A stretch of 64,000 nt of DNA from a virus. The notes beneath the pieces are model-generated. The model worked only from the letters and a program-made list of their open reading frames with translations. It ran no database searches and was not told where the DNA came from. Of the stretch, positions 27,895-55,354 are shown one piece after another (the stretch's first letter is position 1; each line of letters begins with the position of its first letter). The DNA is taken from IMG/VR virus record IMGVR_UViG_3300044568_006268, positions 1-64,000 of that record; one strand, given 5' to 3'. The position numbers were made by a program, and so were the translations under genes.

Positions 27895-30854
<2,960 letters not shown>

Positions 30855-30855
<1 letters not shown>

Positions 30856-33065: not shown

Positions 33066-33599
33066 TTAGTAATCGTTTTCGAAATCAGCTTCGGTCATGT
33101 TGTCATTAACCCATTTTTCTAATTTCTTAGCATCTTTAGTAAGACAAGCAACATGTTGGAAAGATGAATATTCATCACCTTCTTCCCATACTGCAACATC
33201 CACGTTTATATCTTTAATGTTGTAGATATAACCTGATAAATTAGAACCACCAAAAGGAGCTTCTCCACCAATACCTTTAAGTTCTTTAATGTTAAGATCC
33301 TTTTCTTCTACTCTGTGAGCTAATCCATAATATAAAGCTACTACGAATCGATAATCATCGTCTTCTGACATTGCATAAGTAACCGAATTGATATTTCCTT
33401 TCAATTGTTTAGCGATAGTTTCGAAGTTAGTTTTCATCTTAGCCAGCATATCATCATCTACCTCACCAGTTTCTTGTTGCATTTTAATCTGTGATGCTAA
33501 AGTAGTCTTAGTTTCAAAAGGGAATCCTGTATTATAATCGTATTTTTCGTTAATAAAATTCTCATTAACGAATTCTTGAAATGTTTGTAAATTTTTCAT
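33066..33599 (-). CDS. Putative capsid-targeted internal protein 1
   Basis: A 177-residue protein starting MKNLQTFQEFVNE. This leader resembles the T4 internal-protein capsid-targeting sequence (MKTYQEFIAEA), which takes proteins into the prohead and is cut by the prohead protease after a (hydrophobic)-x-Glu site. FVNE and the following FINE fit that cleavage rule. The remainder is acidic alpha/beta with no family I know. It ends the run of five neighbouring genes with such leaders. A host-takeover role after injection is inferred. Confidence 0.7.
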   Translation of the reverse strand: MKNLQTFQEFVNENFINEKYDYNTGFPFETKTTLASQIKMQQETGEVDDDMLAKMKTNFETIAKQLKGNINSVTYAMSEDDDYRFVVALYYGLAHRVEEKDLNIKELKGIGGEAPFGGSNLSGYIYNIKDINVDVAVWEEGDEYSSFQHVACLTKDAKKLEKWVNDNMTEADFENDY

Positions 33600-33611
33600 T
33601 TGTTTATTTGT

Positions 33612-34115
33612 TTAATATCTGTCGTCTTCTTCCCATTCATCATCGCTTCCATAATCATCGTCATCATCATATTCTTCTTCTTGGTACCATGATTGGTTAG
33701 GGTCGTTGTCAGGTTGTTCTGTAAAATCGTGACGATCTGCGTTAAAACGTCTTGGATCTTCTACTAAAGCAGGAAAAAGCACTTTACCACCTTTTACTCT
33801 AGTTTTTGCATGACCAAAAGCTAAATCAATACCTACGTTTCTTAATTCTTTACCAGGTTTTTTATCAGATTCGGTATAACCATTCATTTGGGCTAATAAC
33901 TCATAATAGTCTTTACCTCCAAATACTCCGTAACCTTCGTAACTATTTTCTTCGTATCTAGTACCTTTATCATCAAACATGTAAACGGTAATAGTATTTT
34001 GTCTTTCTGAACCAATTTGTCTTCCAGAATCTTGGGTCATCCATGAAAATTGACCTTCATTTAAAGGTTTAGAATTTTCATTAACAAACTCGCTGAAGGT
34101 TTTTAAATTTTTCAT
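33612..34115 (-). CDS. Putative capsid-targeted internal protein 2 (acidic tail)
   Basis: A 167-residue protein with leader MKNLKTFSEFVNE and a second possible protease site PLNEG at about residue 17. The middle contains ITVYMFDDKGTRYEENSYEG and a domain with KVLFPALVEDPRRFN. The last 30 residues are almost only Asp, Glu and Tyr. Such an acidic tail could mimic DNA or balance the charge of packaged DNA. I recognise no family. Confidence 0.68.
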   Translation of the reverse strand: MKNLKTFSEFVNENSKPLNEGQFSWMTQDSGRQIGSERQNTITVYMFDDKGTRYEENSYEGYGVFGGKDYYELLAQMNGYTESDKKPGKELRNVGIDLAFGHAKTRVKGGKVLFPALVEDPRRFNADRHDFTEQPDNDPNQSWYQEEEYDDDDDYGSDDEWEEDDRY

Positions 34116-34116
34116 A

Positions 34117-34509
34117 TTATTTACCTAATCCTGAAGTTATTTTACCAACTGCAGCACCCCAATCGTCACCTTTAACGTCTTTAGAAATACCAGCAATTAC
34201 TTTGTCAGCAATTTTTTGATCGTATTTATCTCCGTGAGCTTTTTTCAAAAGCGTTTCTGCGTATTCTTTAAAGTCTTTTTCGTTTTTAATGTCAGCTTCA
34301 TTTACTTTACCTTCATTAACTATCGAAATACTTTTTATGTAATCGAAAAATTCCGCAGATTGCTCTTCATTTAATTCGATAGGTGAAGTAACACCAAATT
34401 GTTTAAGTTTGTTTTCGTATAGTTCATTGAACTTATGTGCTTGGTCTTCTTTAGTTTTTGCAACTTTTTGAAGTTTCTGCTCATTAACGAATTCTGAAAA
34501 TTTTTGCAT
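34117..34509 (-). CDS. Putative capsid-targeted internal protein 3
   Basis: A 130-residue helical, Lys/Glu-rich protein with a shortened leader MQKFSEFVNEQ. Repeated V/I-N-E motifs (SIVNEG, KVNEAD) further in could be extra prohead-protease sites, as in the processed T4 internal proteins. It has no other domain I can name. It lies 1 base before the next gene in a co-directional run. Confidence 0.65.
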   Translation of the reverse strand: MQKFSEFVNEQKLQKVAKTKEDQAHKFNELYENKLKQFGVTSPIELNEEQSAEFFDYIKSISIVNEGKVNEADIKNEKDFKEYAETLLKKAHGDKYDQKIADKVIAGISKDVKGDDWGAAVGKITSGLGK

Positions 34510-34528
34510 TGTTTTATGTTTGTTTATT

Positions 34529-35071
34529 TTATCCGAAATATTCGTTTTCGAAGTATAACAACTCGAAGTTGTTTTCTGGGTTTATTAATTGTAGTGCATT
34601 TAAGAATCCTGCATACTCAGCAGTAGAAGATGTATTTTGCTTAACATAGTCTTGTAAGAATACGAAAGTAGCCATATCATTTAATCCAAAAATAGTTTTA
34701 GAATTTTCAGAATATGATTGAAGTAAACCATATTCCATGTCGTAAGCTTTTACGATGATGTCAGCCAAATTGTCGAAATTCATATCAGTCGTAACTGTAG
34801 GAATTGTAGGTTTAACATCCCAATCGGTCATATATTTTTGTAGACCTTGAGCATGAATTAGTTCATCTGTAGCTTCATTGTCAAAGAAAACAGCAGCTTT
34901 CTTATATTCCATGTTGTGGCACCAGTTAGCAGCACTACGATAGAAATAATGAGCAGTATATTCATCACCTATTCGTTGATTGATAAGTTTAACAACTTCA
35001 CTCCTAAGAGTATTAGGCTTTTTAACGATAGTTGGATCTACCGATTTAATTGATTCGTTTATGATATTCAT
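34529..35071 (-). CDS. Ferritin-like protein
   Basis: A 180-residue four-helix-bundle protein. The helices carry a ferritin-type metal site: Glu37 in GDEYTAHYFYRSAANW, Glu70 with His73 in EATDELIHAQ (ExxH), and Glu113 in YDMEYGLLQ. The length matches bacterial ferritins. It probably binds iron, and could protect phage DNA from Fenton damage or store iron. Its first residues (MNIINES) may be a degenerate version of the packaging leader on the neighbouring genes. A TATATAAAAG element lies upstream. Confidence 0.8.
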   Translation of the reverse strand: MNIINESIKSVDPTIVKKPNTLRSEVVKLINQRIGDEYTAHYFYRSAANWCHNMEYKKAAVFFDNEATDELIHAQGLQKYMTDWDVKPTIPTVTTDMNFDNLADIIVKAYDMEYGLLQSYSENSKTIFGLNDMATFVFLQDYVKQNTSSTAEYAGFLNALQLINPENNFELLYFENEYFG

Positions 35072-35086
35072 ATAATAGTTTTAGTT

Positions 35087-35100
35087 CTTTTATATATCCA
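35087..35100 (-). promoter_or_regulatory. Putative late-type promoter element (GGATATATAAAAGAAC)
   Basis: The minus strand reads GGATATATAAAAGAAC between the stop of the 186-residue gene and the ATG at 35071, about 16-30 bases upstream of that start. It matches the late-region element, consistent with late expression of head-packaged proteins. Confidence 0.35.
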
Positions 35101-35104
35101 ACAA

Positions 35105-35665
35105 TTACATGTTGGCGTCTAGAACTTTTTTGAATGATTTAGCATCAGTAACTTCTTCTCCGTGCAATTCAATAGTTTCTCTATCCAAATTGATGTAGAT
35201 TTCTGAACCTTGATATTTCATATCTAAGATAATAGTGCTGTAGTTTTTTCCAATAGCTGTACCACCACTAATTCTTTTGCCTGCCTTTTCTGCCCATGTA
35301 GCAGCCTTTTTAACTAATGCAGTTGCATAGGAACCTTTACGTTTAGCAAATTCCATGATATTAGAAGGTACAGATGCAGCTTCATTAATTACAGATTCTT
35401 CTACTTTAAAAGTTTTGTTTCCTACTTTAACGGTTTTACCTATCAGATCATCAACACCATAAGGTTTTCCTAATTTGTCTTCGAAAGTTTGATCGTCTGA
35501 CCAATCATCAGGAGTTTGTAAAAGTTTTGCAATCACATCGGCTTTAGAAGACGATTCAGTTCTACCCCAGTTGTCGATAACCTCAGAGTAATAAACTATT
35601 TCGATTGCTCCTTCATTAACTGAAGATTCGTTAATGAATTCGTTGAATGTTTGTAAGTTTTTCAT
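35105..35665 (-). CDS. Putative capsid-targeted internal protein 4
   Basis: A 186-residue protein with leader MKNLQTFNEFINE, followed by SVNEGAIE, and a third possible protease site SVINEAAS near residue 93. The C-terminal 80 residues include KAATWAEKAGKRISGGTAIG and a beta segment. I see no recognisable domain. Its ATG overlaps the stop of the preceding MBD4-like gene by one base. Confidence 0.68.
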   Translation of the reverse strand: MKNLQTFNEFINESSVNEGAIEIVYYSEVIDNWGRTESSSKADVIAKLLQTPDDWSDDQTFEDKLGKPYGVDDLIGKTVKVGNKTFKVEESVINEAASVPSNIMEFAKRKGSYATALVKKAATWAEKAGKRISGGTAIGKNYSTIILDMKYQGSEIYINLDRETIELHGEEVTDAKSFKKVLDANM

Positions 35666-41015: not shown

Positions 41016-41369
41016 CTATTTTGTATCAAGTAATTTTACTTTAGCAACACAAAGTTTTTCTTTGATTTTATCAGTTTTGATTTTACCAAATCTAGAGAAG
41101 ACCATTCGGGTCATATTAGGATTGATTCTATCCTTAATGATATTATCTAGTTCCTCACCTTTAATATTTGAATAAGTTCTCAATTCAAATCGATCTTCTT
41201 CAATGTGAGTTAACATAATTGAACCGTTCATAAAGAAAAGCCTTTTTGCAGTTTCGAAATCTTGCTTCAAAATGAAGTCGTTCATAAACTCGTTTTTCAT
41301 AGTCTTATTTAGTGTTAAGACTACCAATGATTCGTTAATGAACTCATCGTATTTTTTAAATGTGCTCAT
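41016..41369 (-). CDS. Putative capsid-targeted internal protein 5
   Basis: A 117-residue protein with leader MSTFKKYDEFINE, close to the T4 MKTYQEFIAE pattern and with a (F)INE protease site. The rest is basic alpha/beta (RMVFSRFGKIKTDKIKEKLC). Its ATG overlaps the stop of the next internal-protein gene by one base. This gene and its two neighbours form a second cluster separate from the one at 33-36 kb. Confidence 0.65.
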   Translation of the reverse strand: MSTFKKYDEFINESLVVLTLNKTMKNEFMNDFILKQDFETAKRLFFMNGSIMLTHIEEDRFELRTYSNIKGEELDNIIKDRINPNMTRMVFSRFGKIKTDKIKEKLCVAKVKLLDTK

Positions 41370-41854
41370 TACTTATTTAATTTTACCTCTATGATATTTT
41401 TAGGTCCTTTAGAAATAGTGGCCTTAGGGAATTCATGTTTAATATATTTAGAATAGAGATTAAGTCTAGCTATGTTTGTAGTTTCTCCTTTCTTTTTTGC
41501 TGGTGTAAATACGAGAATATCTACTTCGGGATGTGTACTTAAGTCTTTCTTAATTACATCTACGACGGTTGCCATTACTTTAAATAGTTCTCCCTTATTT
41601 GTTACAATATCATCTCTTTCAATGTCTGGATCTTCATCATCCGGAACATAGAATCTCACAGATAAAACGTTGTTTGCACCTTCATAATCGTCTATGTCGT
41701 CGTATTGTAGTTCTACCGTATATGGATAGCTTGGTGTTTCAAATCCATATATTCTTGCATTGCCATAATCACCATAAAAATCAGGATGATATGCCTTTGA
41801 ACTGGAATCTCCTATTTCGTTTAAGAATTCGTCGTATGATGGTAAATTTTTCAC
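41369..41854 (-). CDS. Putative capsid-targeted internal protein 6 (GTG start)
   Basis: A 161-residue protein starting at GTG (41854) with leader MKNLPSYDEFLNE. The central part has ELQYDDIDDYEGANNVLSVR and a VDILVFTPAKKKGE segment, forming an alpha/beta domain I cannot name. The GTG overlaps the stop of the next gene (TAGTG). Confidence 0.65.
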   Translation of the reverse strand: MKNLPSYDEFLNEIGDSSSKAYHPDFYGDYGNARIYGFETPSYPYTVELQYDDIDDYEGANNVLSVRFYVPDDEDPDIERDDIVTNKGELFKVMATVVDVIKKDLSTHPEVDILVFTPAKKKGETTNIARLNLYSKYIKHEFPKATISKGPKNIIEVKLNK

Positions 41855-42216
41855 TAGTCTTGTTTTGGTTTTTCGCCTTTACCTTTTAACCAATCGGCAA
41901 CATCAGAATCCGTAGTTTCGTATCCTTTAGTTTTTCTAATGAAAGCATTTAAACGAGCATAACCCCATGCAGTATATGCTGCAGGACCTCTACCAATTTT
42001 TTGAATGTTAGGATTAACAGCACCCCAATTAGTTTCAGCTGCACCATAACCTCTTTTAAAGAGCATAGTTAATGCATCTTCGATTTGAGCAGGAGATCCA
42101 CCAATAGCTTTTTTAGTTTTTGGATCGTTTGCAAGTTCCTTTATTCTATCATCTACTTTGCTATCTTCATTTAATGCAAAATCGACGAATTCGTCGTAAG
42201 TTATTAGATTTTTCAC
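41854..42216 (-). CDS. Putative capsid-targeted internal protein 7 (GTG start)
   Basis: A 120-residue protein starting at GTG (42216) with leader MKNLITYDEFVDFALNE, where the cleavage-like site is moved (ALNED). The rest is basic and Gly/Ala-rich (KAIGGSPAQIEDALTMLFKR; GRGPAAYTAWGYARLNAFIR). I recognise no domain. It is 8 bases downstream of the GT-A glycosyltransferase gene. Confidence 0.62.
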   Translation of the reverse strand: MKNLITYDEFVDFALNEDSKVDDRIKELANDPKTKKAIGGSPAQIEDALTMLFKRGYGAAETNWGAVNPNIQKIGRGPAAYTAWGYARLNAFIRKTKGYETTDSDVADWLKGKGEKPKQD

Positions 42217-45451: not shown

Positions 45452-45895
45452 TTACTCGTTTCTTGCTATGTCTCTTGACACATCTCTAGATTTAATTGTT
45501 TCTCGTTTATCATATTCTTTTTTACCTTTAGCTAGAAAGATTTCCATTTTGAAAAGTCCTCTTTCATTTTGAAATATTTTATAAGGTACAATTGAGTGGC
45601 CTTTGATGAGGTCCTTTTGTAGCTTTTTAAGTTCTTGTTTTCGCAGCAACAATTTGCGGTTGCAATCCGGTTCGTGACTATTAGGCGAATTCTTTGCAAC
45701 TGGAATATGAAGGCCTCTGACGTAAAGCTCATCATTCTCAAAAATACAATAAGTATCAGTAAGTCCAGCTAATCCTAGTCGAATAGATTTTACTTCACTG
45801 CCTTTTAATTGTATACCTGCAATTTCTGACCTCAATAAGTGATAATCAAATTTAGCTTTTCGATTGATGACGTTTACGTCTTTGACTTTTTTCAT
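45452..45895 (-). CDS. smpB: SmpB, tmRNA-binding protein
   Basis: A 147-residue full-length SmpB. Family landmarks are all present: NRKAKFDYHL, AGIQLKGSEVKSIRLGLAGL, DTYCIFENDELYV, the RKLLLRKQELKKL segment and the C-terminal GKKEYDKRETIKSRDVSRDIAR that inserts into the ribosomal decoding centre. SmpB binds the tRNA-like domain of tmRNA and is required for trans-translation. A complete tmRNA gene lies at 50630-51004 in the same window. Its ATG overlaps the stop of the flavoprotein gene by one base. Confidence 0.96.
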   Translation of the reverse strand: MKKVKDVNVINRKAKFDYHLLRSEIAGIQLKGSEVKSIRLGLAGLTDTYCIFENDELYVRGLHIPVAKNSPNSHEPDCNRKLLLRKQELKKLQKDLIKGHSIVPYKIFQNERGLFKMEIFLAKGKKEYDKRETIKSRDVSRDIARNE

Positions 45896-46368
45896 TATTT
45901 TAAAAATTTTCTAATTGATGAATTTAATCTCTCTAGATGTTCTTCATTTTGCAAACCAGCAAATTTCGTAACATTATCAGATATAAAAGGAATACAAATC
46001 TTTTTATTAAATACTTCTGCACCTATCCATTCAAGAATAGTGTCTAATTGAGTTATTCCTAAAATATTACCAAATGAGGTATTTGATGTACCTATTAGCA
46101 ATATGTTGGTTCCTTTAAGTGTTGATGGATATCCGGAATTATCTATCAATTGCTTAAACATATAAGGAAATGATCCGTTCCATTCAGGAACTATCATAAT
46201 GATATGTGTGAAATCTTTCATGTTAGGAATATCATCAGTAGCATTTGCTAAAGTAATAATACTTGTCGCACCTTTAAATATTTCGTATTGTATGAAAGAC
46301 TCACAACCTAAGGACAGCTTATAATTTAAGCCGTCCTTTGATGATTGTGTGAGTATGAGTATTTTCAT
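45895..46368 (-). CDS. Flavodoxin-like NAD(P)H-dependent FMN reductase
   Basis: A 157-residue flavodoxin-fold protein. The N-terminal FMN-phosphate loop is ILTQSSKDGLNYKLS, and PEWNGSFPYMFKQLID is the second conserved flavin-binding segment of NAD(P)H:FMN reductases. It probably supplies reduced flavin or quinone reduction; the partner in this phage is not evident. It lies between smpB and the SPFH gene, coupled by TAATG junctions. Confidence 0.85.
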   Translation of the reverse strand: MKILILTQSSKDGLNYKLSLGCESFIQYEIFKGATSIITLANATDDIPNMKDFTHIIMIVPEWNGSFPYMFKQLIDNSGYPSTLKGTNILLIGTSNTSFGNILGITQLDTILEWIGAEVFNKKICIPFISDNVTKFAGLQNEEHLERLNSSIRKFLK

Positions 46369-47378
46369 TATTTTTTATCAGCACCACCGATGTTCATCAT
46401 AACGGATTGTCCACTACCCATCATATAAGTAGGTAAGGCACCATCCCATTTTTGAATCCATTCTAATTGAATAATCTTAGGATTAGTCGAGATAGAGTTA
46501 CCTTTGATTTGTAACGCTTTAGCTTCACCTTCAGCTTTTTCGATTGCAATGTTTTTATCGATTTGAGCTTGTTTTAAGGCTTCATCTTTTTGACGAGTAA
46601 TTTGTACCATTGTAAGTACTTTTTGCTCTTCTAATTTCTTTTGATTAATGGAAGCTTCATATTGTTTGTTGTAGAATACCTCTCTAATTTGAGCAACATC
46701 AACAATTATACGATTAGCCGCTAATTCTTTTTGTAGAGCTGCTTGCATTTTCGCTTGAATTTCTGCTCTTTTATCAGAGTAACAATCAATTGGTGTATAT
46801 CGAGAAACCGTTAATGGCATAATAGATTTGATAGCCGGTCTAATGATATTTTCTTCAATCCAATGATATTTACCGGTAGCATCATCTGTACCAGAAGAAA
46901 TATTTGAATAAATCCAAGAAGCTTCTTTAGGATCGATATGCCAGTTAATAGAAACATCGAATCCCATTTTGATACCATCAGAGGTTGGAGCCCAAATAGC
47001 ATCATCAGCCTGTTTAGCACCTTCTCCTTCAGTACCTGATAATGTATATACCCAAACAGTTTTGTCCATCAATTGAACTTGATTATAAGGAGCTACTAAG
47101 TGCCAACCAGTAGTTAGCTCATCTGGATCTACTCCAGCAGGTGTAACTACAACTCCTACTTCTTGTGCATCAATTTTGTATAATGTCATAGACAATAATA
47201 CTGAAACTGCGAAAACGATTGTACTAATTAATAGTGTAAGTTTTCCTGCAGGAAATTGCATGACTTCGTCATAATTTTTAGGATCAGCCTCATGTTTGGC
47301 GTTGATTCTAGATTGGATCGTTCCAATAATTCCATAAATAAGTCCTAATGCGGACGCAATAATTAAAAATGTTAACAT
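46368..47378 (-). CDS. SPFH/prohibitin-like membrane protein
   Basis: A 336-residue protein with an N-terminal hydrophobic helix (residues 2-22), a second one at about 47-67, then the SPFH/band-7 domain (DAQEVGVVVTPAGVDPDELT; GWHLVAPYNQVQLMDKTVWV; YNKQYEASINQKKLEEQKVL) and a coiled-coil tail rich in Ala, Glu and Lys. In bacteria such proteins (HflK/HflC) scaffold membranes and restrain FtsH. A phage copy could organise the host membrane during infection or protect phage proteins. Its start is close to the preceding gene. Confidence 0.88.
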   Translation of the reverse strand: MLTFLIIASALGLIYGIIGTIQSRINAKHEADPKNYDEVMQFPAGKLTLLISTIVFAVSVLLSMTLYKIDAQEVGVVVTPAGVDPDELTTGWHLVAPYNQVQLMDKTVWVYTLSGTEGEGAKQADDAIWAPTSDGIKMGFDVSINWHIDPKEASWIYSNISSGTDDATGKYHWIEENIIRPAIKSIMPLTVSRYTPIDCYSDKRAEIQAKMQAALQKELAANRIIVDVAQIREVFYNKQYEASINQKKLEEQKVLTMVQITRQKDEALKQAQIDKNIAIEKAEGEAKALQIKGNSISTNPKIIQLEWIQKWDGALPTYMMGSGQSVMMNIGGADKK

Positions 47379-47401
47379 AGTTTTTGTTTAAAGTGTTTGT
47401 A

Positions 47402-47851
47402 TTAATATTCAGATTTTAATTGTTCTCTTATTCTAGCCTCGTACTTTTGTTGGTCTTCGACGGCTTTCGCAACTTTTTGATTGCATGCTTCAATAAATGC
47501 CGGATCTAACAGAGCTTCTAGCTTTCTATCAGTGGTTTCCATTACCATTACTGCATAATCTAAAGCAGATTTTAAATCGTAAAAGGTTTGTAATCCTTGA
47601 GGTTCAACATGATTTCCTGCTCTTACTGTAAATTTGTCAGTTTTCCCTGGTCGTTCGATTTGATAAAATATCACATAGAATTTAGACAATTCTGCTTTGT
47701 GGTGAATTTTACCGTAACGAATAAATGTAACATATTTATTATCACACGAATCCATTTGAGTTTCGATCCTCCATTCAGGTGGTAATTCTGGTTTTAAAAT
47801 TTCAGCTCTCCAAATAGGTGCTAAATTTGAAATTTCTTTTTCTGTTTTCAT
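47402..47851 (-). CDS. Hypothetical protein
   Basis: A 149-residue alpha/beta protein (PEWRIETQMDSCDNKYVTFI, with a helical C-terminal half). No signal peptide or enzymatic motif is visible. It lies between the SPFH gene and the guanylate kinase-like gene. I do not recognise it. Confidence 0.55.
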   Translation of the reverse strand: MKTEKEISNLAPIWRAEILKPELPPEWRIETQMDSCDNKYVTFIRYGKIHHKAELSKFYVIFYQIERPGKTDKFTVRAGNHVEPQGLQTFYDLKSALDYAVMVMETTDRKLEALLDPAFIEACNQKVAKAVEDQQKYEARIREQLKSEY

Positions 47852-47860
47852 TTTGTTTGT

Positions 47861-48349
47861 TTAAAAGTTATGGTCTGTTAATCGAACGTCAAAATCTGTA
47901 AAATTTGCAAAGTCCTTTTCATCGGCTTCTAATCTTCGTTCTACTGTATCAGCATCACTTCGTAATGCTAATCTATCTTTTCGGATATCAAGTGCAATAT
48001 CGATGTAAATGATGAACGAATTTTTTCGATCAGCTGCATGTAATTTACTAATTCCGGAAGGCGTCATGATAAACACGTCATCAGTTAAGTGGAATTGTGA
48101 ATTTGAAGTTCCATAATTCCAACCATTAAATGAAACATGTTCATAGAAGAACTTTTGTTCAATCATCGTTTGGAACTCATTATCTTCTAAGAAGTAATAA
48201 TCTCTGCCATCAACTTCACCATCTCTTGGAGGTCGAGTTGTATAAGAAACTCCATAACGATAACCTCTGCCTTCTAGGATTTTTCGCAAATGGTCTTTGC
48301 CGGATGCGGCTTTACCGCAAAGTATAATTCTGGATTTTGTACCTGTCAT
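47861..48349 (-). CDS. Guanylate-kinase-like nucleoside monophosphate kinase
   Basis: A 162-residue P-loop kinase. The loop CGKAASGKD (residues 11-19) is followed by VSYTTRPPRDGEVDGRDYYF, the GMP-binding motif of guanylate kinases, and YEHVSFNGWNYGTS. It is a little shorter than cellular guanylate kinase and the lid is reduced. The standard substrate is (d)GMP, but a modified dNMP is possible given the base-modification genes. Its start overlaps the next gene by 4 bases (ATGA). Confidence 0.88.
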   Translation of the reverse strand: MTGTKSRIILCGKAASGKDHLRKILEGRGYRYGVSYTTRPPRDGEVDGRDYYFLEDNEFQTMIEQKFFYEHVSFNGWNYGTSNSQFHLTDDVFIMTPSGISKLHAADRKNSFIIYIDIALDIRKDRLALRSDADTVERRLEADEKDFANFTDFDVRLTDHNF

Positions 48350-48606
48350 AATAGGTTATTTAATTTTTGTATGTTTTCCTTTAGAGTTTCTCTCGTTCCT
48401 AAATCAAATGCATGCATTTCATCGGTCGACGAACTTTCTAGATGAAGACCTAATTGAAAAGGACTCATCAAATAAAATTCACGTTTTTCTTTAGGAATAG
48501 ATTGGAGATTGATACGGTCTTTGATGCATTGTTCAATTAGATGAAGTTCTTCTAATTGTTCTTCGATGAGCTTTTTAATTGCTTCGGATAGTGAACCGTT
48601 TTTCAT
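48346..48606 (-). CDS. Small helical hypothetical protein
   Basis: An 86-residue acidic protein that is almost entirely helical (EAIKKLIEEQLEELHLIEQC). It is coupled to the kinase gene by an ATGA overlap, so it may be a partner or regulator. An ATAATATAAAAC leader precedes the start. Function unknown. Confidence 0.5.
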   Translation of the reverse strand: MKNGSLSEAIKKLIEEQLEELHLIEQCIKDRINLQSIPKEKREFYLMSPFQLGLHLESSSTDEMHAFDLGTRETLKENIQKLNNLL

Positions 48607-48645
48607 ATTGTGTTTTATATTATATGCTGATTTCTAATTTTGTAT

Positions 48646-48927
48646 TTATAAAGATACTGGCATATTGTACATCATCATGCAATAGAATTTTAATGCATGA
48701 ATATTAGTACCATCGGCATTCGCAATAGCACCTTTTAAATCGTTGTTTACGACGGATTGTACGAAAGAACCACCAGCATAACCTATTTCATGGCGAGTAC
48801 AAATAATAGATGTACCTATATTTACAATGTGTTGTTTATCTTCGTTGCTTAAATTTGCAAAGTTAAGAATGTAATTGTTGGCATATTTATCGAAGTATGC
48901 TTGAACTTGTTTTTTGATGTTTTCCAT
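48646..48927 (-). CDS. Hypothetical protein
   Basis: A 93-residue protein (MENIKKQVQAYFDKYANNYI). The C-terminal part is neutral with small hydrophobic stretches but no convincing transmembrane segment. It lies 2 bases from the BT4734-like gene. I do not recognise the family. Confidence 0.5.
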   Translation of the reverse strand: MENIKKQVQAYFDKYANNYILNFANLSNEDKQHIVNIGTSIICTRHEIGYAGGSFVQSVVNNDLKGAIANADGTNIHALKFYCMMMYNMPVSL

Positions 48928-48929
48928 GA

Positions 48930-49454
48930 TTAAAATATTCTTGAGTTTTCGTTAATATAAGCAGTTGGGTCGTAAGATACAAATTGAATTCTAGCAATAT
49001 CTTTACAGTGGTTATCTCGAATACCACCAGTATCATGTGAGAATGCTTCGGCTATTTCCATTTCGATTTGTTTGTAGGTTTCAGGAGTTGCTTTTGATTT
49101 GATTACAACTTTTAAACCTTTACCTGAAGGAGTAATAAATGTTGCATGAACATAGTTTAACTTTTCGGCTTTAGCCTTTAATGTGATTACATCTTCGACA
49201 TTATCGATATCTAAACAAATTACACCATTGTATTCTTCTAATCCAGCAATTGAACGGTAGTTGAATTGACCGGTTGGCGTAAATACTGGCAGTTTGTCCT
49301 TTTTATGAGATTTTGAAGGATTTTCGTCTTGACGAATTTCTTCGATAATAGATTTGTACTTGTCACTACGAATTTCTTCGATGATAGTAGATAATGTAGA
49401 GACTTCCACCGGTTTGGTGTTTTTGACTGACTTGAAACGTGTGATTTTTAACAT
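48930..49454 (-). CDS. BT4734-like (VirE_N) domain protein
   Basis: A 174-residue protein. The segments KDKLPVFTPTGQFNYRSIAG, LEEYNGVICLDIDNVEDV and HATFITPSGKGLKVVIKSKA match the N-terminal domain of BT4734/VirE-type proteins, which in Bacteroidetes are usually fused to a DUF3987 helicase. Here the domain is stand-alone. It is related to archaeo-eukaryotic primase folds, so a primase-like role in phage replication is possible. The presence of this family points to a Bacteroidetes host. Confidence 0.8.
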   Translation of the reverse strand: MLKITRFKSVKNTKPVEVSTLSTIIEEIRSDKYKSIIEEIRQDENPSKSHKKDKLPVFTPTGQFNYRSIAGLEEYNGVICLDIDNVEDVITLKAKAEKLNYVHATFITPSGKGLKVVIKSKATPETYKQIEMEIAEAFSHDTGGIRDNHCKDIARIQFVSYDPTAYINENSRIF

Positions 49455-49476
49455 AAGTTTGTTTTAATTAGATAAG

Positions 49477-49543
49477 TAAAACTAATCAATTTAGGTGACA
49501 TATGGAAATGTTTATTGATTTATTTTTTGAAAGTTATTAACAA
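49477..49543 (-). promoter_or_regulatory. Dyad promoter for the BT4734-like unit (48-bp spacer)
   Basis: The minus strand reads TTGTTAATAAC (49533-49543), 48 bp later the -7 box TAGTTTTA preceded by TTGAT (49477-49484). It lies between the 99-residue gene and the BT4734-like gene. The first part of the dyad touches the end of the upstream gene. Confidence 0.6.
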
Positions 49544-49544
49544 T

Positions 49545-49844
49545 TTAGTAATTAATCCAAGTTGTTAATTTTGTAGTACCATCTTTCCAAGGCCAGGATT
49601 CCATAGCGGCAACCTCATCGCCATTACAGTATTTATGAATCCATAACCATTGTTCCCAATAATCGTCATCACCTAACACTGAATAGAAACCAAAACATAA
49701 CCATTCGATTTTTAACGAAGGCACAGATTCGCATCTAGGAGTATTGAACTTGTCTTTCCATCTTAATGATTGTTTTCGTACAATAGGAAGCCATGCAAAT
49801 TCGTAGTTCCAATAAAATTGAGATGTTCTTTTTGGTGATTTCAT
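49545..49844 (-). CDS. Trp-rich hypothetical protein
   Basis: A 99-residue protein with twelve Trp residues (QFYWNYEFAWLPIV; WEQWLWIHKY; AMESWPWK). Cellular proteins rarely have so many. It is probably a compact binding protein. It overlaps the next gene by one base. No family is recognised. Confidence 0.55.
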   Translation of the reverse strand: MKSPKRTSQFYWNYEFAWLPIVRKQSLRWKDKFNTPRCESVPSLKIEWLCFGFYSVLGDDDYWEQWLWIHKYCNGDEVAAMESWPWKDGTTKLTTWINY

Positions 49845-50062
49845 TATCTTTCAAGTATTACAAATGAACCAAAATAACCATCAAAAACCTGCAATAGATT
49901 TTCATAATCTCCTGACATCATTTCGTTTATAATTTTTTCTTTGTCTAATCCTAGTTGCTTAGCGAAATTAGAAGCATAACCCATTAGAGCAAATGCATTT
50001 CCATCAGGTCCAGTTAAGTCAATAACAATAGGTCCAGTTTTTTCTTTTTTCTCTCGTATCAT
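49844..50062 (-). CDS. Small conserved phage protein
   Basis: A 72-residue protein. The central IDLTGPDGNAFALMGYASNF followed by helices (KQLGLDKEKIINEMMSGDYE) is a pattern I have met in hypothetical proteins of many large phages, usually in early regions. No activity is known to me. It is 2 bases from a small membrane-protein gene. Confidence 0.6.
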   Translation of the reverse strand: MIREKKEKTGPIVIDLTGPDGNAFALMGYASNFAKQLGLDKEKIINEMMSGDYENLLQVFDGYFGSFVILER

Positions 50063-50064
50063 AA

Positions 50065-50271
50065 TTAATTAAAAATGTAATTGTATAACATAGGTCCGTA
50101 AATAATTGCAGATGATATGAATCCGCAAAATGAAATAAATACTGAAGCGACCATAACTAAATCGTCATTCACTCGATCATTAGTTTTCCTAAACCAGAAT
50201 CCAGGATCGTTGTGATATAGTTGATAGCCAATGTTTCCAATCATAAAAATAATCCAAGGTAAGTGTATCAT
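50065..50271 (-). CDS. Small two-helix membrane protein
   Basis: A 68-residue protein with hydrophobic helices near residues 3-18 (HLPWIIFMIGNIGYQL) and 38-66 (VMVASVFISFCGFISSAIIY). There is no signal peptide. Its role in the host inner membrane is unknown. Confidence 0.55.
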   Translation of the reverse strand: MIHLPWIIFMIGNIGYQLYHNDPGFWFRKTNDRVNDDLVMVASVFISFCGFISSAIIYGPMLYNYIFN

Positions 50272-50273
50272 AA

Positions 50274-50537
50274 TTAAGCTTTATAAAAGTTAAGTTCGTA
50301 GTTTCCTGAATCCATTCGGTACAAAATGACAGTTAAACATTTTTTAGCAAGATTACCAGTTCGCTTTACTATTAGGTCCAAATGATAAAATACGGTTTGT
50401 CCATATGCTACATGTTCGGTCCATATGTTTTCCGGAAATTTGATTTCGTAATGATTTTCATCAATGATAGATTGATATGCATTTTGCAATGCTTCATTTT
50501 GAGTAGCGAAATAAGTAGTTGGTTGGTATTTTGACAT
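50274..50537 (-). CDS. Hypothetical early protein
   Basis: An 87-residue alpha/beta protein (KYQPTTYFATQNEALQNAYQ). It is the first gene downstream of the dyad promoter that follows the tmRNA gene. No family is recognised. Confidence 0.5.
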   Translation of the reverse strand: MSKYQPTTYFATQNEALQNAYQSIIDENHYEIKFPENIWTEHVAYGQTVFYHLDLIVKRTGNLAKKCLTVILYRMDSGNYELNFYKA

Positions 50538-50561
50538 AATGAATTAGTTTAATTTGATATA

Positions 50562-50617
50562 CAAATATAACAAAAAAACTCGATATTAAAAAATATCGAG
50601 TTAAAAGTTATTAACAA
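50562..50617 (-). promoter_or_regulatory. Dyad promoter with embedded terminator hairpin, just after the tmRNA
   Basis: The minus strand reads TTGTTAATAAC (50607-50617), then 37 bp that hold the stem AACTCGATATT/AATATCGAGTT (50577-50602) plus seven T, then the -7 box TATATTTG (50562-50569). The hairpin should end the tmRNA transcript while the -7 box restarts transcription of the small early genes. This copy shows most clearly that terminator and promoter are merged into one module. Confidence 0.7.
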
Positions 50618-50629
50618 AATAACCAGTAG

Positions 50630-51004
50630 TGGACCTAGTGGGAATCGAACCCACGTCTTGGAAAGATGTACAATGTATTCATTCACAGGCTTAGCAATAT
50701 TTTCTAACTTTGCAAAATATAAGGTTGGGTTAACACAGTTCCTTACCTTCAACTAACTGAGTGATATTATACTCCTGACACTAAGGAGTAATCGCTGTCG
50801 AATTTCTGTTCCTGAGTAATCGAGACTCGATTGCTTATGCAGCCATTAAGACTTCACCAGCACCAACGAATGCCATAGCATCTTCGAAGGTCATTGTTGA
50901 CTTGTTGTCATTTAAAAAGTTACATAGGTGATTTAAGAGTTTCCGATGCTAACTCTGCCTGCATATCAAAGAACTGGTCTACCAATCAAAGCCTGGTTAG
51001 GCCC
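50630..51004 (-). ncRNA. ssrA: Transfer-messenger RNA (tmRNA)
   Basis: A 375-nt tmRNA on the minus strand. The 7-bp acceptor stem GGGCCTA (51004-50998) pairs with TAGGTCC near the 3' end (50637-50631), with a discriminator A and no encoded CCA. The T arm GTGGG-TTCGATT-CCCAC is perfect, and the upstream GACGTGGG matches the usual tmRNA 3' domain. The tag reading frame ends ...GGTGCTGGTGAAGTCTTAATGGCTGCATAA, which translates to GAGEVLMAA and stop. A stem AATCGAG-T-CTCGATT follows the stop, and further stems in the middle fit pseudoknots. It should rescue stalled ribosomes together with the phage SmpB (45452-45895). Confidence 0.9.
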
Positions 51005-51012
51005 ATTAGAAC

Positions 51013-51038
51013 TTCGAGTCTAAATCAATAGACTCGAA
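51013..51038 (-). other. Perfect 10-bp hairpin just upstream of the tmRNA 5' end
   Basis: The inverted repeat TTCGAGTCTA/TAGACTCGAA (loop of six) lies between the lipoprotein stop (51045) and the tmRNA start (51004). No T-run follows on the minus strand, so it is not a typical terminator. It could be a processing signal that frees the tmRNA 5' end from a co-transcript, or a weak terminator. Confidence 0.5.
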
Positions 51039-51044
51039 ATTAAA

Positions 51045-51242
51045 TTAATTAGCTGGTGTAGCAGCTGGAGTAGTTGTAGGAGTTACAACTTTTAATGAAT
51101 CAACTTTAGTTGAATCTACTTTTACTGAATCAACTTGAACTGCAGTTGAATCTGTTGAAGTTTCTGTTGTAGCAGTTGTTTGTTTACAAGATACTACTGT
51201 TAATGCAGCAATGATTGCTAGGCTTAAAATTACTTTTTTCAT
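51045..51242 (-). CDS. Small secreted lipoprotein
   Basis: A 65-residue protein. MKKVILSLAIIAALTVVSC has a charged start, a hydrophobic core and the lipobox Cys at residue 19. The mature part is a Thr/Ser/Asp/Val-rich low-complexity string. Small lipoproteins expressed early often block superinfection at the outer membrane (T5 Llp-like role), but this is inference. It lies upstream of the tmRNA and could be co-transcribed with it. Confidence 0.75.
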   Translation of the reverse strand: MKKVILSLAIIAALTVVSCKQTTATTETSTDSTAVQVDSVKVDSTKVDSLKVVTPTTTPAATPAN

Positions 51243-52372: not shown

Positions 52373-55354
52373 ATGCCAACAGCAAATTACCCTAATAATC
52401 AAGATTATCGTTTAAATAAGACTCGTCCTCTTACATGGAAAGAAATGGACGATATGTTCAGAAAACCAAATATTTGGATTGGAGATTTTAGTTACGTTCA
52501 AGGAATGGTCGTGATGTGGGATGATTCAGTTCCACCAGTTAATAATGGAGATGATGGAACTTTATCTTTTTGGTTATGTGATTCCGATCACGTATCTTCC
52601 AATACTAATACTCCAGGAATATTAAATAGTCCATGGAGAAGAATAGGTGGATTAAGTGTTCCAGGACCTACAGGAGAATCGGGTGGTCCTATAGGACCTA
52701 CTGGAATGACCGGTGCTACTGGTAGAACTGGAATGACAGGTGCAACAGGTTCTACTGGAATGACTGGTGCGGTTGGACAAACTGGTGCTACTGGACAAAC
52801 TGGAATGACTGGTGCTGTTGGACCTACCGGAGTTGGTTTACCCGGATCTAAAGGTGATACTGGAAATATTGGTGCTACAGGAATGACTGGGTTAGTAGGA
52901 CCAACTGGAGCAGGAGTAACTGGTGCTACTGGACAAACTGGACAAACTGGACCTACCGGTTTCAACGGACAAACTGGTCCTACAGGAATGACTGGTGCAG
53001 GAGAAACCGGTGCTACAGGAATGACAGGAATGACAGGTGCTACTGGAATGACAGGACCTATAGGACCTACTGGTGCAAATGGAATCCCGATGGGTAAACC
53101 ATCTGATGCATTAGATATGTATTACGATGATGATCCGTCTTCACAAGGTTGTAATCCTGGTGATCCGCTCAAACTATCGTTTGATGTAGTACGAACTGGA
53201 GTTACTTCACTTGCATATGTAGTAGATAATTCCGGTATTTCGACTGCAGGAGGTACAAAAATATTAATACAAAAAGAAGGAAATTATTTTATATCGGTAA
53301 ATGTTAATATAAAAATTCTAACTCCGGTCGACGGTAGAGCCGAAGTTTCTTTAAATTTATATTATGATGATACCTCTGGAAGCTATACTAAATTCGACGG
53401 ATTTCAAGGAAATGTTATATTAGATGCAGAAGGTTTAACTCCAACTGGAACATTAAAAGATTCTATTATGATTCAAGGAATTTTTAATGTAGATGCTAGT
53501 TGGATTTCTTCAAACAGAAAAATATATGCCGTATTAGAAAATGCTGCAGCAGGAATTTCTCTTTCATCCATCGTCGTATCACCTATTTCTACTTCATTAT
53601 CTATCATCTCGTTAGAAGGTGGAATTGGTGCTACTGGAGCAGGAGTTGCTGGACAAACTGGTGCTACTGGTATGACTGGATTAGTTGGACCAACTGGAGC
53701 AGGTCAAACTGGTGCTACTGGACAAACTGGTGCTACCGGAGAAACTGGAATGACAGGTGCTACTGGAATGACTGGTCCTACTGGTGCTGGACAAACTGGT
53801 GCTACCGGAATGACTGGTCCTACTGGTCTAGGGTACGATCTTACTTCTTCAATATCTGCTACTGCTGGATTAGGGGTAAAAGTTTTTACCGTAAATAAAG
53901 ATGCATCTCTTTCTGCATTTTCCATTGGAAACCGAGTAAGAGTAAGTTCATCTTTCGTAATTTGGATGGAGGGAGAGATAACATCATATGCAGGAAATAC
54001 CTTAATTGTGAATGTTGATAAAGTAGTTGGTAGTGGTGCTTCTGCGAGTAGTTGGGATATCGACATTGCTGGACTTCCTGGACCTACTGGAATGACTGGA
54101 ATGACTGGTGCTACTGGAAGAACTGGTAGTACAGGAATGACTGGTGCTACTGGAAGAACTGGTAGTACAGGAATGACTGGAGCTCAAGGTCCTATCGGAC
54201 CAGCAGGACCATTTGGTGCTACTGGTATGACTGGATTAGTTGGACCAACTGGATCAGGCACTACATTTATTCATGAAACTGCTACTTTCGTAGATCCTAA
54301 CGGTAGCAACAGTACTGGTGCAGTAGGAGATAAACAAAAACCATTTTTGACGATAGAAGAAGCAATAGGTCAAGCTCGTTCACGAGCAAACGAACAAGGC
54401 GGACCATTTACTATCATCGTATATCCGGGTATTTATGAGGAAAACAAGCAATGGAATTTTGAAAACGACGAAGGAACTATTAAATTTATCGGTCAAGTTT
54501 ATATAGAATTTGATAACCCAAACCCGGTAGATTATTTTATCAAAATGAGTAATTCGTATATTAATTTCGTTGGAGATGACCGAGGGACGAATAATTTCCA
54601 AATTGGCGGTACTTGTAATACTGGAACATATTTAACCATATCTAGTAAATTCGGTACTAATGTGTATTTATTCGATGTTCGAAATACTAAACTTAAACTA
54701 TCAAATATTACAATAGATACAGGATTTTTAGGAAAATTTGGAGTAGATTGGAAATACCCCGGTGGTGGTAGTAAAGTAGATATTGATAATTGTAGAATGA
54801 GATCTATTATACATCCTAATATCGAGGTTTCTGCCGACGGCGCAGTTGATGGTCTTTCTAGATTACCAGATATATTAATTAGAGATTCAATTCTAGCATC
54901 GGCTTTTGGACCTAATATTGGATATTATGCATTTACTAATGGTTTAGAATCTGAAGCTACTTTATTGATTGATAATAGCACAATCTATCAAGATCCTACC
55001 TATGGAGGTTTAGGTAAATTAACACCTGGATTTCCAACTCCAGTAGGAGGAAAATTACCTCACGTAGACAGTTTCATATATTCAACGATGAATCTGGATA
55101 ACCAATTAAGGTTGATATTTTCTGGGACGAAATTCCATATGAACAAATGGTCTCCACCAGCAGAAGGAAGTGGTGGACCTGAAGCTTGCGTACATTTTGA
55201 TAATTCTGGAAATGATTTCAAACATGACACGATGTCAACTTACACTAATACTCGAAATTTTTTAGGAGCCAGCATCTGGACTCATGTAGTTGACCATATA
55301 ACGGAGTTAAAAGGTAGTACGAAATCTCCAATTGAATATATGAACATACTTTAA
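52373..55354 (+). CDS. Collagen-like tail fiber 2, the only plus-strand gene
   Basis: A 993-residue fiber. Residues 1-92 repeat the anchor domain of fiber 1 ([20 protein letters not shown]). Collagen-like Gly-X-Thr rods occupy about 94-235, 418-485 and 562-632, interrupted by beta domains. The last 350 residues form a parallel beta-helix/pectin-lyase-like tip ([40 protein letters not shown] region), unlike the jelly-roll tip of fiber 1. The Thr in the Y position is a plausible O-glycosylation site. It is flanked by early minus-strand genes and its 3' end overlaps the DHFR-like gene by 4 bases. Confidence 0.9.

Follow-up and report, generated by a model that had tools for sequence, protein, structure and literature searches.

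The 64,000-nucleotide stretch of viral DNA analysed here (positions 1 to 64,000 of IMG/VR record IMGVR_UViG_3300044568_006268, hereafter the window) carries genes for both partners of trans-translation, a transfer-messenger RNA (tmRNA, ssrA) and its binding protein SmpB. Both genes are intact homologs of their families, the tmRNA covaries among its phage relatives, the tag peptide that this group of RNAs encodes is under selection as a peptide, and in some relatives clpP lies beside the tmRNA gene. We consider it likely that the locus is a complete, working trans-translation pair, which would rescue ribosomes during infection and mark unfinished proteins for Clp proteolysis. The rescue role of the pair is well supported, and the degradation of tagged proteins could in addition be phage-specific. 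The pairing of SmpB with a tmRNA in a phage is not in itself new; the window tag and its recurrence across phages appear to be new, as does a second family of long tags with clpP upstream of the tmRNA.

The tmRNA and smpB genes of the window

The tmRNA gene is a one-piece gene of 378 nucleotides on the minus strand (50627–51004). It matches the Rfam tmRNA model RF00023 over model positions 1–374 of 374, not truncated, with 68.2 bits against a gathering score of 47 (E = 2e-24). This bears out the complete tmRNA that a first-pass annotation had placed at 50630–51004; the lower end given there is the discriminator base, and the match reaches 50627. The two strands of the acceptor stem, GGGCCUA (50998–51004) and UAGGUCC (50631–50637), pair with each other and form the G3.U70 alanine identity pair, and are followed by the discriminator A (50630) and then CUA. 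The T arm, GUGGG-UUCGAUU-CCCAC, lies at 50638–50654, and helix H2a is formed by GCAGGC (50957–50962) and GCCUGU (50685–50690). Directly 3' of the tmRNA is an intrinsic-terminator-like hairpin of 11 pairs followed by a U run (50577–50602). All these elements are on the minus strand, as is a perfect 10-bp inverted repeat (51013–51038) that lies between the tmRNA and a small lipoprotein-like open reading frame (51045–51242) and that, judged from its sequence, could be a processing site or an upstream terminator. ARAGORN, which the first-pass annotation had named as a check, did not call a tmRNA at 50627–51004 when run on the window, so that surveys by ARAGORN alone would miss this one. Given the divergence of these RNAs, phage tmRNAs are undercounted in ARAGORN-based surveys.

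Relatives that share the core of the window tag (class A, described below) allowed us to examine how the RNA structure varies. Complete tmRNAs were identified among them with a simple rule for the acceptor stem and T arm, which partly builds in the full pairing of these stems. All 7 acceptor pairs form in 57/57 distinct class A sequences, where a position can show as many as six pair types, and all five pairs of the T stem form in the same 57/57, with four pair types at position 2. In helix H2a, position 4 is A-U, C-G, U-A or G-C among the relatives and is paired in 56/56. The selection rule builds in neither this variety among the pairs nor the H2a covariation, and both are thus evidence that the tmRNA is maintained. 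Furthermore, G3.U70 is present in the window tmRNA and in 108/108 complete phage tmRNAs of two classes, and each of the 19 class A and B contigs that were sampled passes the Rfam gathering score for tmRNA. The folding energy of the window tmRNA (z = -1.55) is a weak signal and not decisive alone.

The smpB gene (45452–45895) is likewise on the minus strand, a detail that the first-pass annotation lacks for both genes, and encodes an SsrA-binding protein of 147 residues, which the first-pass annotation had described as full-length. Indeed, the Pfam profile PF01668 matches it over positions 3–140 of 143 (147 bits, E = 5e-43), and it scores above the cut-offs of two equivalog-level models, TIGR00086 (147.8 bits against 119.1) and NF003843 (146.6 bits against 130). 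A PDB search matched 15 distinct SmpB chains, with 7ljp_A at the top (E = 7e-35). In the alignment, the GKKxxDKR tail motif is kept as GKKEYDKR within the C-terminal tail GKKEYDKRETIKSRD. The SmpB tree places the protein in a phage-only clade with L003–L006 (99/96) and L010 (97/84), among or next to the SmpBs of Bacteroidota. The genome of L010 (G009) encodes a tag of the same class as the window, DNTSTFTFEDAMAFVGGEVAIAA. Around smpB, the window has essentially nothing in common with its SmpB sisters except the gene itself and weak NUDIX-like matches. The tails of some other phage SmpBs (L009, L013, L014 and L018) have KGKNxYDK(K/S) in place of KGKKxYDKR; the genome of L009 encodes a tag of class B, introduced below.

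Long tags shared among phages

The tag frame of the window tmRNA, DNKSTMTFEDAMAFVGAGEVLMAA followed by TAA (50835–50909, minus strand; stop codon at 50837–50835), is open over 24 codons and so is not near 10 residues, the commonest length of tmRNA tags (PMC11915505). The resume codon GAC was set by alignment to relatives whose tag is called by ARAGORN, and AAU, one codon earlier, is a possible alternative; in relatives of the window tmRNA ARAGORN itself calls long tags. The window tag ends in VLMAA before the stop and is thus hydrophobic and Ala-rich at its end.

A degenerate pattern of the core EDAMAFVG, which defines class A, was found in 93 viral contigs, 77 of them with a complete tmRNA around it. 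Of the remaining 16, most run off an end of the sequence available for that contig, and a few failed the acceptor and T-arm rule. The same pattern was found in 0/395 Bacteroidota genomes, which together with its recurrence in viral contigs favours the earlier idea of a phage-specific tag. The search pattern dictates the core, and selection was therefore gauged outside it. Over the last six class A tag codons, diversity is 0.10, 0.06 and 0.38 at codon positions 1, 2 and 3, compared to 0.57, 0.56 and 0.58 in the sequence immediately past the stop codon and 0.44, 0.49 and 0.42 ahead of the tag. The trend is weaker over the eight codons that precede the core (0.19, 0.23 and 0.29 by codon position). 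The low diversity at positions 1 and 2 of the last six codons indicates that selection acts on the class A tag as a peptide, at least over the C-terminal end. A conserved tag that is unlike that of the probable hosts and under such selection means that these phages maintain the tagging step itself, beyond the release of the ribosome.

We also looked for the tag elsewhere. A PDB search for the tag as part of a known protein gave no match, a weak test with so short a query, and the tag sequence is not mentioned in the open-access literature searched, which does not cover subscription papers. Searching 50,697 phage records for the tag peptides with tblastn returned no match, and a control with a real phage tag, confirmed to be present, likewise returned none; these tblastn negatives therefore carry no weight. 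Among named phages, blastn of whole tmRNAs gave mostly matches on the scale of the T arm and none that covered 80% of the query. Matches of ~35 bases to the tag region of the window tmRNA in Salmonella phages (E = 0.4) were read as chance.

Two further tag classes were found. Class B, with the tag DNDFIVSENFL..EA....GELAVA, was reached through relatives of SmpB and occurs in 35 contigs. Class C is represented by G004, whose 22-residue tag was read by hand as GNVINKLSAVGLVRTSETVAVA. With three long-tag classes, such tags have thus originated or diversified in several phage lineages. A long tag as such is not new, since mycobacteriophages of the Bxz1 type have one of 25 residues. No SmpB was found in the 24 long contigs among class A records picked by the tag pattern; these are fragments, so that absence is no proof, and class A phages that have no SmpB of their own probably use that of the host. 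Some class A loci have a GOLLD RNA (L086:4451–4861 and L095:8254–8663; RF02032, ~300 bits) within about 5 kb of the tmRNA, along with many tRNAs.

Clp genes and the fate of tagged proteins

A gene of the ClpP family was found in 16 of the 21 records that bear these tmRNAs, and Lon, as a possible partner protease, in 0/21. The linkage is closest in class B, where BLAST places clpP on the tmRNA strand and upstream of it, at 112 to ~1,800 nucleotides, in 29/29 loci that have 1 kb or more of flank; ClpP was no part of the search pattern. The linkage persists in 16/16 loci after dereplication, with tmRNA identities from 65% up. A motif-only count gave 13/16 with a motif that is too strict, and the BLAST count is used here. 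Several of these class B loci also have dnaJ nearby. In one subgroup of class A, which includes L061, clpP is 3.6–3.8 kb from the tmRNA. Four genomes (G004, G015, G048 and G051) combine SmpB, tmRNA and ClpP with a two-domain ATPase of the ClpA/B/C type; three of them belong to class B, and G004 has the third tag. No Clp ATPase was found in the other 17/21 records. Searches of the open literature, which do not extend to subscription papers, returned no title or abstract that describes a link between phage tmRNA and clpP. In G015 an intein-like segment appears to break up the Clp ATPase (L350:115–1806) close to the second nucleotide-binding site; on this segment PF14890 scores 24.3 bits, under its cut-off of 35.8.

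We infer that the window pair is expressed and would act as follows. The host alanyl-tRNA synthetase would charge the phage tmRNA through G3.U70, and the phage SmpB, probably together with host SmpB, would bind it and with EF-Tu deliver it to ribosomes held up on mRNAs that are cut or lack a stop codon. Translation of the 24-codon frame would then free the ribosome and leave the unfinished protein with a long tag of the phage type. The C-terminal end of the tag (LMAA, and YAVAA or YALAA in relatives) resembles a Clp degron, so the tagged protein would most likely be destroyed by Clp proteolysis, mostly by host ClpXP and possibly by phage Clp machinery in relatives with clpP beside the tmRNA. 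The benefit might be that ribosomes are kept free late in infection, while phage or defence nucleases cut mRNA.

Several features weigh against a working pair that feeds Clp proteolysis. In the alignment, the SmpB tail, which ends in DIARNE, is ~5 residues shorter than that of E. coli SmpB, and the hydrophobic Ile-Met position (Ile154/Met155 in E. coli) is missing from it. An equally short tail is found in several other phage SmpBs, including sisters of the window protein, and the hydrophobic end of SmpB is a variable trait outside the family cut-off. The 3' end of the tmRNA is encoded as A-CUA (A-CTA in the gene) rather than A-CCA, so a host or phage enzyme must supply the CCA end. The 294 kb record of the window's phage yielded no Clp ATPase. 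The sole ClpP candidate of this genome is a 188-residue ClpP-like protein (146263–146829 of G001) with Ser-His-Asp kept. It is divergent and far from the tmRNA (146 kb vs 51 kb), so the window's genome lacks the class B arrangement, in which a same-strand clpP is no more than 2 kb upstream. It scores 81.6 bits against a ClpP cut-off of 249 (TIGR00493 / NF001368) and 59.7 against 120 for head-maturation proteases, and it may be a head-maturation protease or a ClpP.

The protease that would read the tag is where the nearest alternative lies. The phage might run a private, orthogonal tag-and-degrade route in which its own Clp machinery or adaptor reads the long tag and recycles unfinished or host proteins under phage control, a reading that we regard as possible and rather doubtful. 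The conservation of the long tag across phages fits it, and so do the constant class B linkage to clpP, the nearby DnaJ genes, and the four genomes with both SmpB and a ClpA/B/C-type ATPase. There is also a precedent for a tag matched to a protease in Mesoplasma florum, with Lon (PMC8138137). However, clpP is not near the tmRNA in most of class A, no ATPase was found in the window's genome or in most records, the class B adjacency may reflect shared ancestry, and the tag ends look like ordinary ClpX degrons. The class B linkage suggests a private degradation route in that family, where it points to a protease partner, and not for the window. The broader proposal, that many jumbo phages have a private trans-translation and proteolysis system in which a long and conserved phage-only tag is the cognate degron of phage Clp, partly or wholly apart from host ClpXP and the 9-residue host tag, is likewise tentative.

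Other readings question the tagging itself. The phage tmRNA, the short-tailed SmpB or both could inhibit host trans-translation or serve as a decoy for it, as was proposed for the tag-less tmRNA of phage DS6A (PMC4131195). The slightly short SmpB tail would fit, and in most class A phages a tmRNA without an accompanying SmpB would load host SmpB; yet a decoy needs no tag, selection acts on the class A tag as a peptide and DKR is retained in the tail of the window SmpB, and we find this reading improbable. We think it very unlikely that the conserved tag is a by-product of constraint on the RNA, with pseudoknots reusing the bases. The tag-region DNA of the window and L078 is strikingly similar, with 31 identical bases, but over the last six codons third positions are 4–6 times more variable than first and second positions, and variation rises sharply just past the stop codon. 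We give least credence to a tmRNA that is a passive leftover or integration-site fragment of host ssrA, with SmpB gained separately. According to PMC4383910, ssrA is the integration site of many temperate elements, and two records with ssrA and smpB (L021 and L022, below) carry a tag of the usual bacterial kind and look like chromosomal DNA of bacteria. However, the window RNA is complete, both of its halves being present, a terminator-like hairpin follows it, its structure is conserved by covariation, and the tag core recurs in many phage contigs and in no Bacteroidota genome searched; the leftover reading is already largely refuted. The pair is best read as a probably working rescue system, and a phage tag unlike that of the probable hosts suggests that such phages have their own means to rescue, tag and destroy.

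Known phage systems, host and neighbouring genes

The first-pass annotation had called phage tmRNAs rare and a phage with its own SmpB as well unusual. Phage tmRNAs are uncommon and not very rare, with 402 of 18,146 genomes carrying one (PMC9004378). The pair itself is confirmed, and it has precedents in Lak phages and in the huge phages listed with both tmRNA and SmpB by Al-Shayeb et al. 2020, for which stalled-ribosome rescue was proposed (PMC7162821). Like the window, these are large genomes with both genes; unlike the present work, that survey was based on ARAGORN, and in the passages of its main text on these genes the tag is not given and no link to clpP is mentioned. In our own analysis, a tmRNA above the Rfam cut-off was present in 10 of 24 SmpB-bearing viral records. 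Two of the ten, L021 and L022, are small IMG/VR records that carry smpB and ssrA with the ordinary bacterial tag ANDENYGAQLAA and resemble bacterial chromosome.

The Lak megaphages (MK250016, MK250024 and MK250029) resemble the window in having their own SmpB (39–43% identity) and a tmRNA (RF00023, 48–54 bits), but their SmpBs belong to another clade and their clpP is unlinked. ClpP occurs in Lak and in most other SmpB-bearing megaphages searched. The Bxz1-type mycobacteriophage ON551388 shares with the window a one-piece tmRNA and a long tag of 25 residues, ATDTDATVTDAEIEAFFAEEAAALV, whereas this tag is unrelated, the host is actinobacterial, and a Pfam search found no ClpP. Phage tmRNAs are also present in two phages of Bacteroidota, the crAss-like cr10_1 and Chryseobacterium phage MA9V-3, and in Pelagibacter phage Mosig (SAR11), but here the gene is permuted and in two pieces, the tags have 9–17 residues, and no ClpP was found in the crAss-like, SAR11 or mycobacterial phages with tmRNA. 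The permuted two-piece tmRNAs of crAss-like and Chryseobacterium phages (L326–L329 and L331) have tags of 13–17 residues such as GNNFVTDYTQLAVA. The Mesoplasma florum system is like the proposed phage one in having an unusual tag of another length that is matched to its own protease (PMC8138137), and unlike it in being cellular and based on Lon. In the 735 kb phage LR756501, a group I intron (RF00028, 96 bits) adjoins a weak 21-bit tmRNA match (L314:1272–1844), which is possibly an intron-interrupted phage tmRNA. Intron-interrupted tmRNA genes are known from bacteria.

The window is part of a 129 kb virus record (G000), and the 20 kb that were compared are identical, at the same coordinates, in IMGVR_UViG_3300044568_003163 (294 kb). 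The cellular SmpBs closest to that of the window are nearly all labelled Bacteroidota, and a BT4734-like domain is encoded near the smpB/tmRNA pair. Class A and class B loci show an enrichment of Bacteroidota-type promoters that is not seen in the window, so the host assignment comes from SmpB kinship and the BT4734-like domain only; on these sequence features the window likely belongs to a jumbo phage that infects Bacteroidota. At 18 tmRNA loci of Bacteroidota, nearly all tags called by ARAGORN have 8–10 residues and are of the type GENNYALAA (~9).

Elsewhere in the window, several small proteins encoded at 33066–35665 and 41016–42216 have in common an N-terminus like MKNLxTFxEFVNE, which recalls the kind of signal that is cleaved off in capsid targeting or processing. 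Furthermore, two very long fibre-like proteins with collagen repeats are encoded on opposite strands, at 27895–30855 (minus) and 52373–55354 (plus), and their N-termini are alike.

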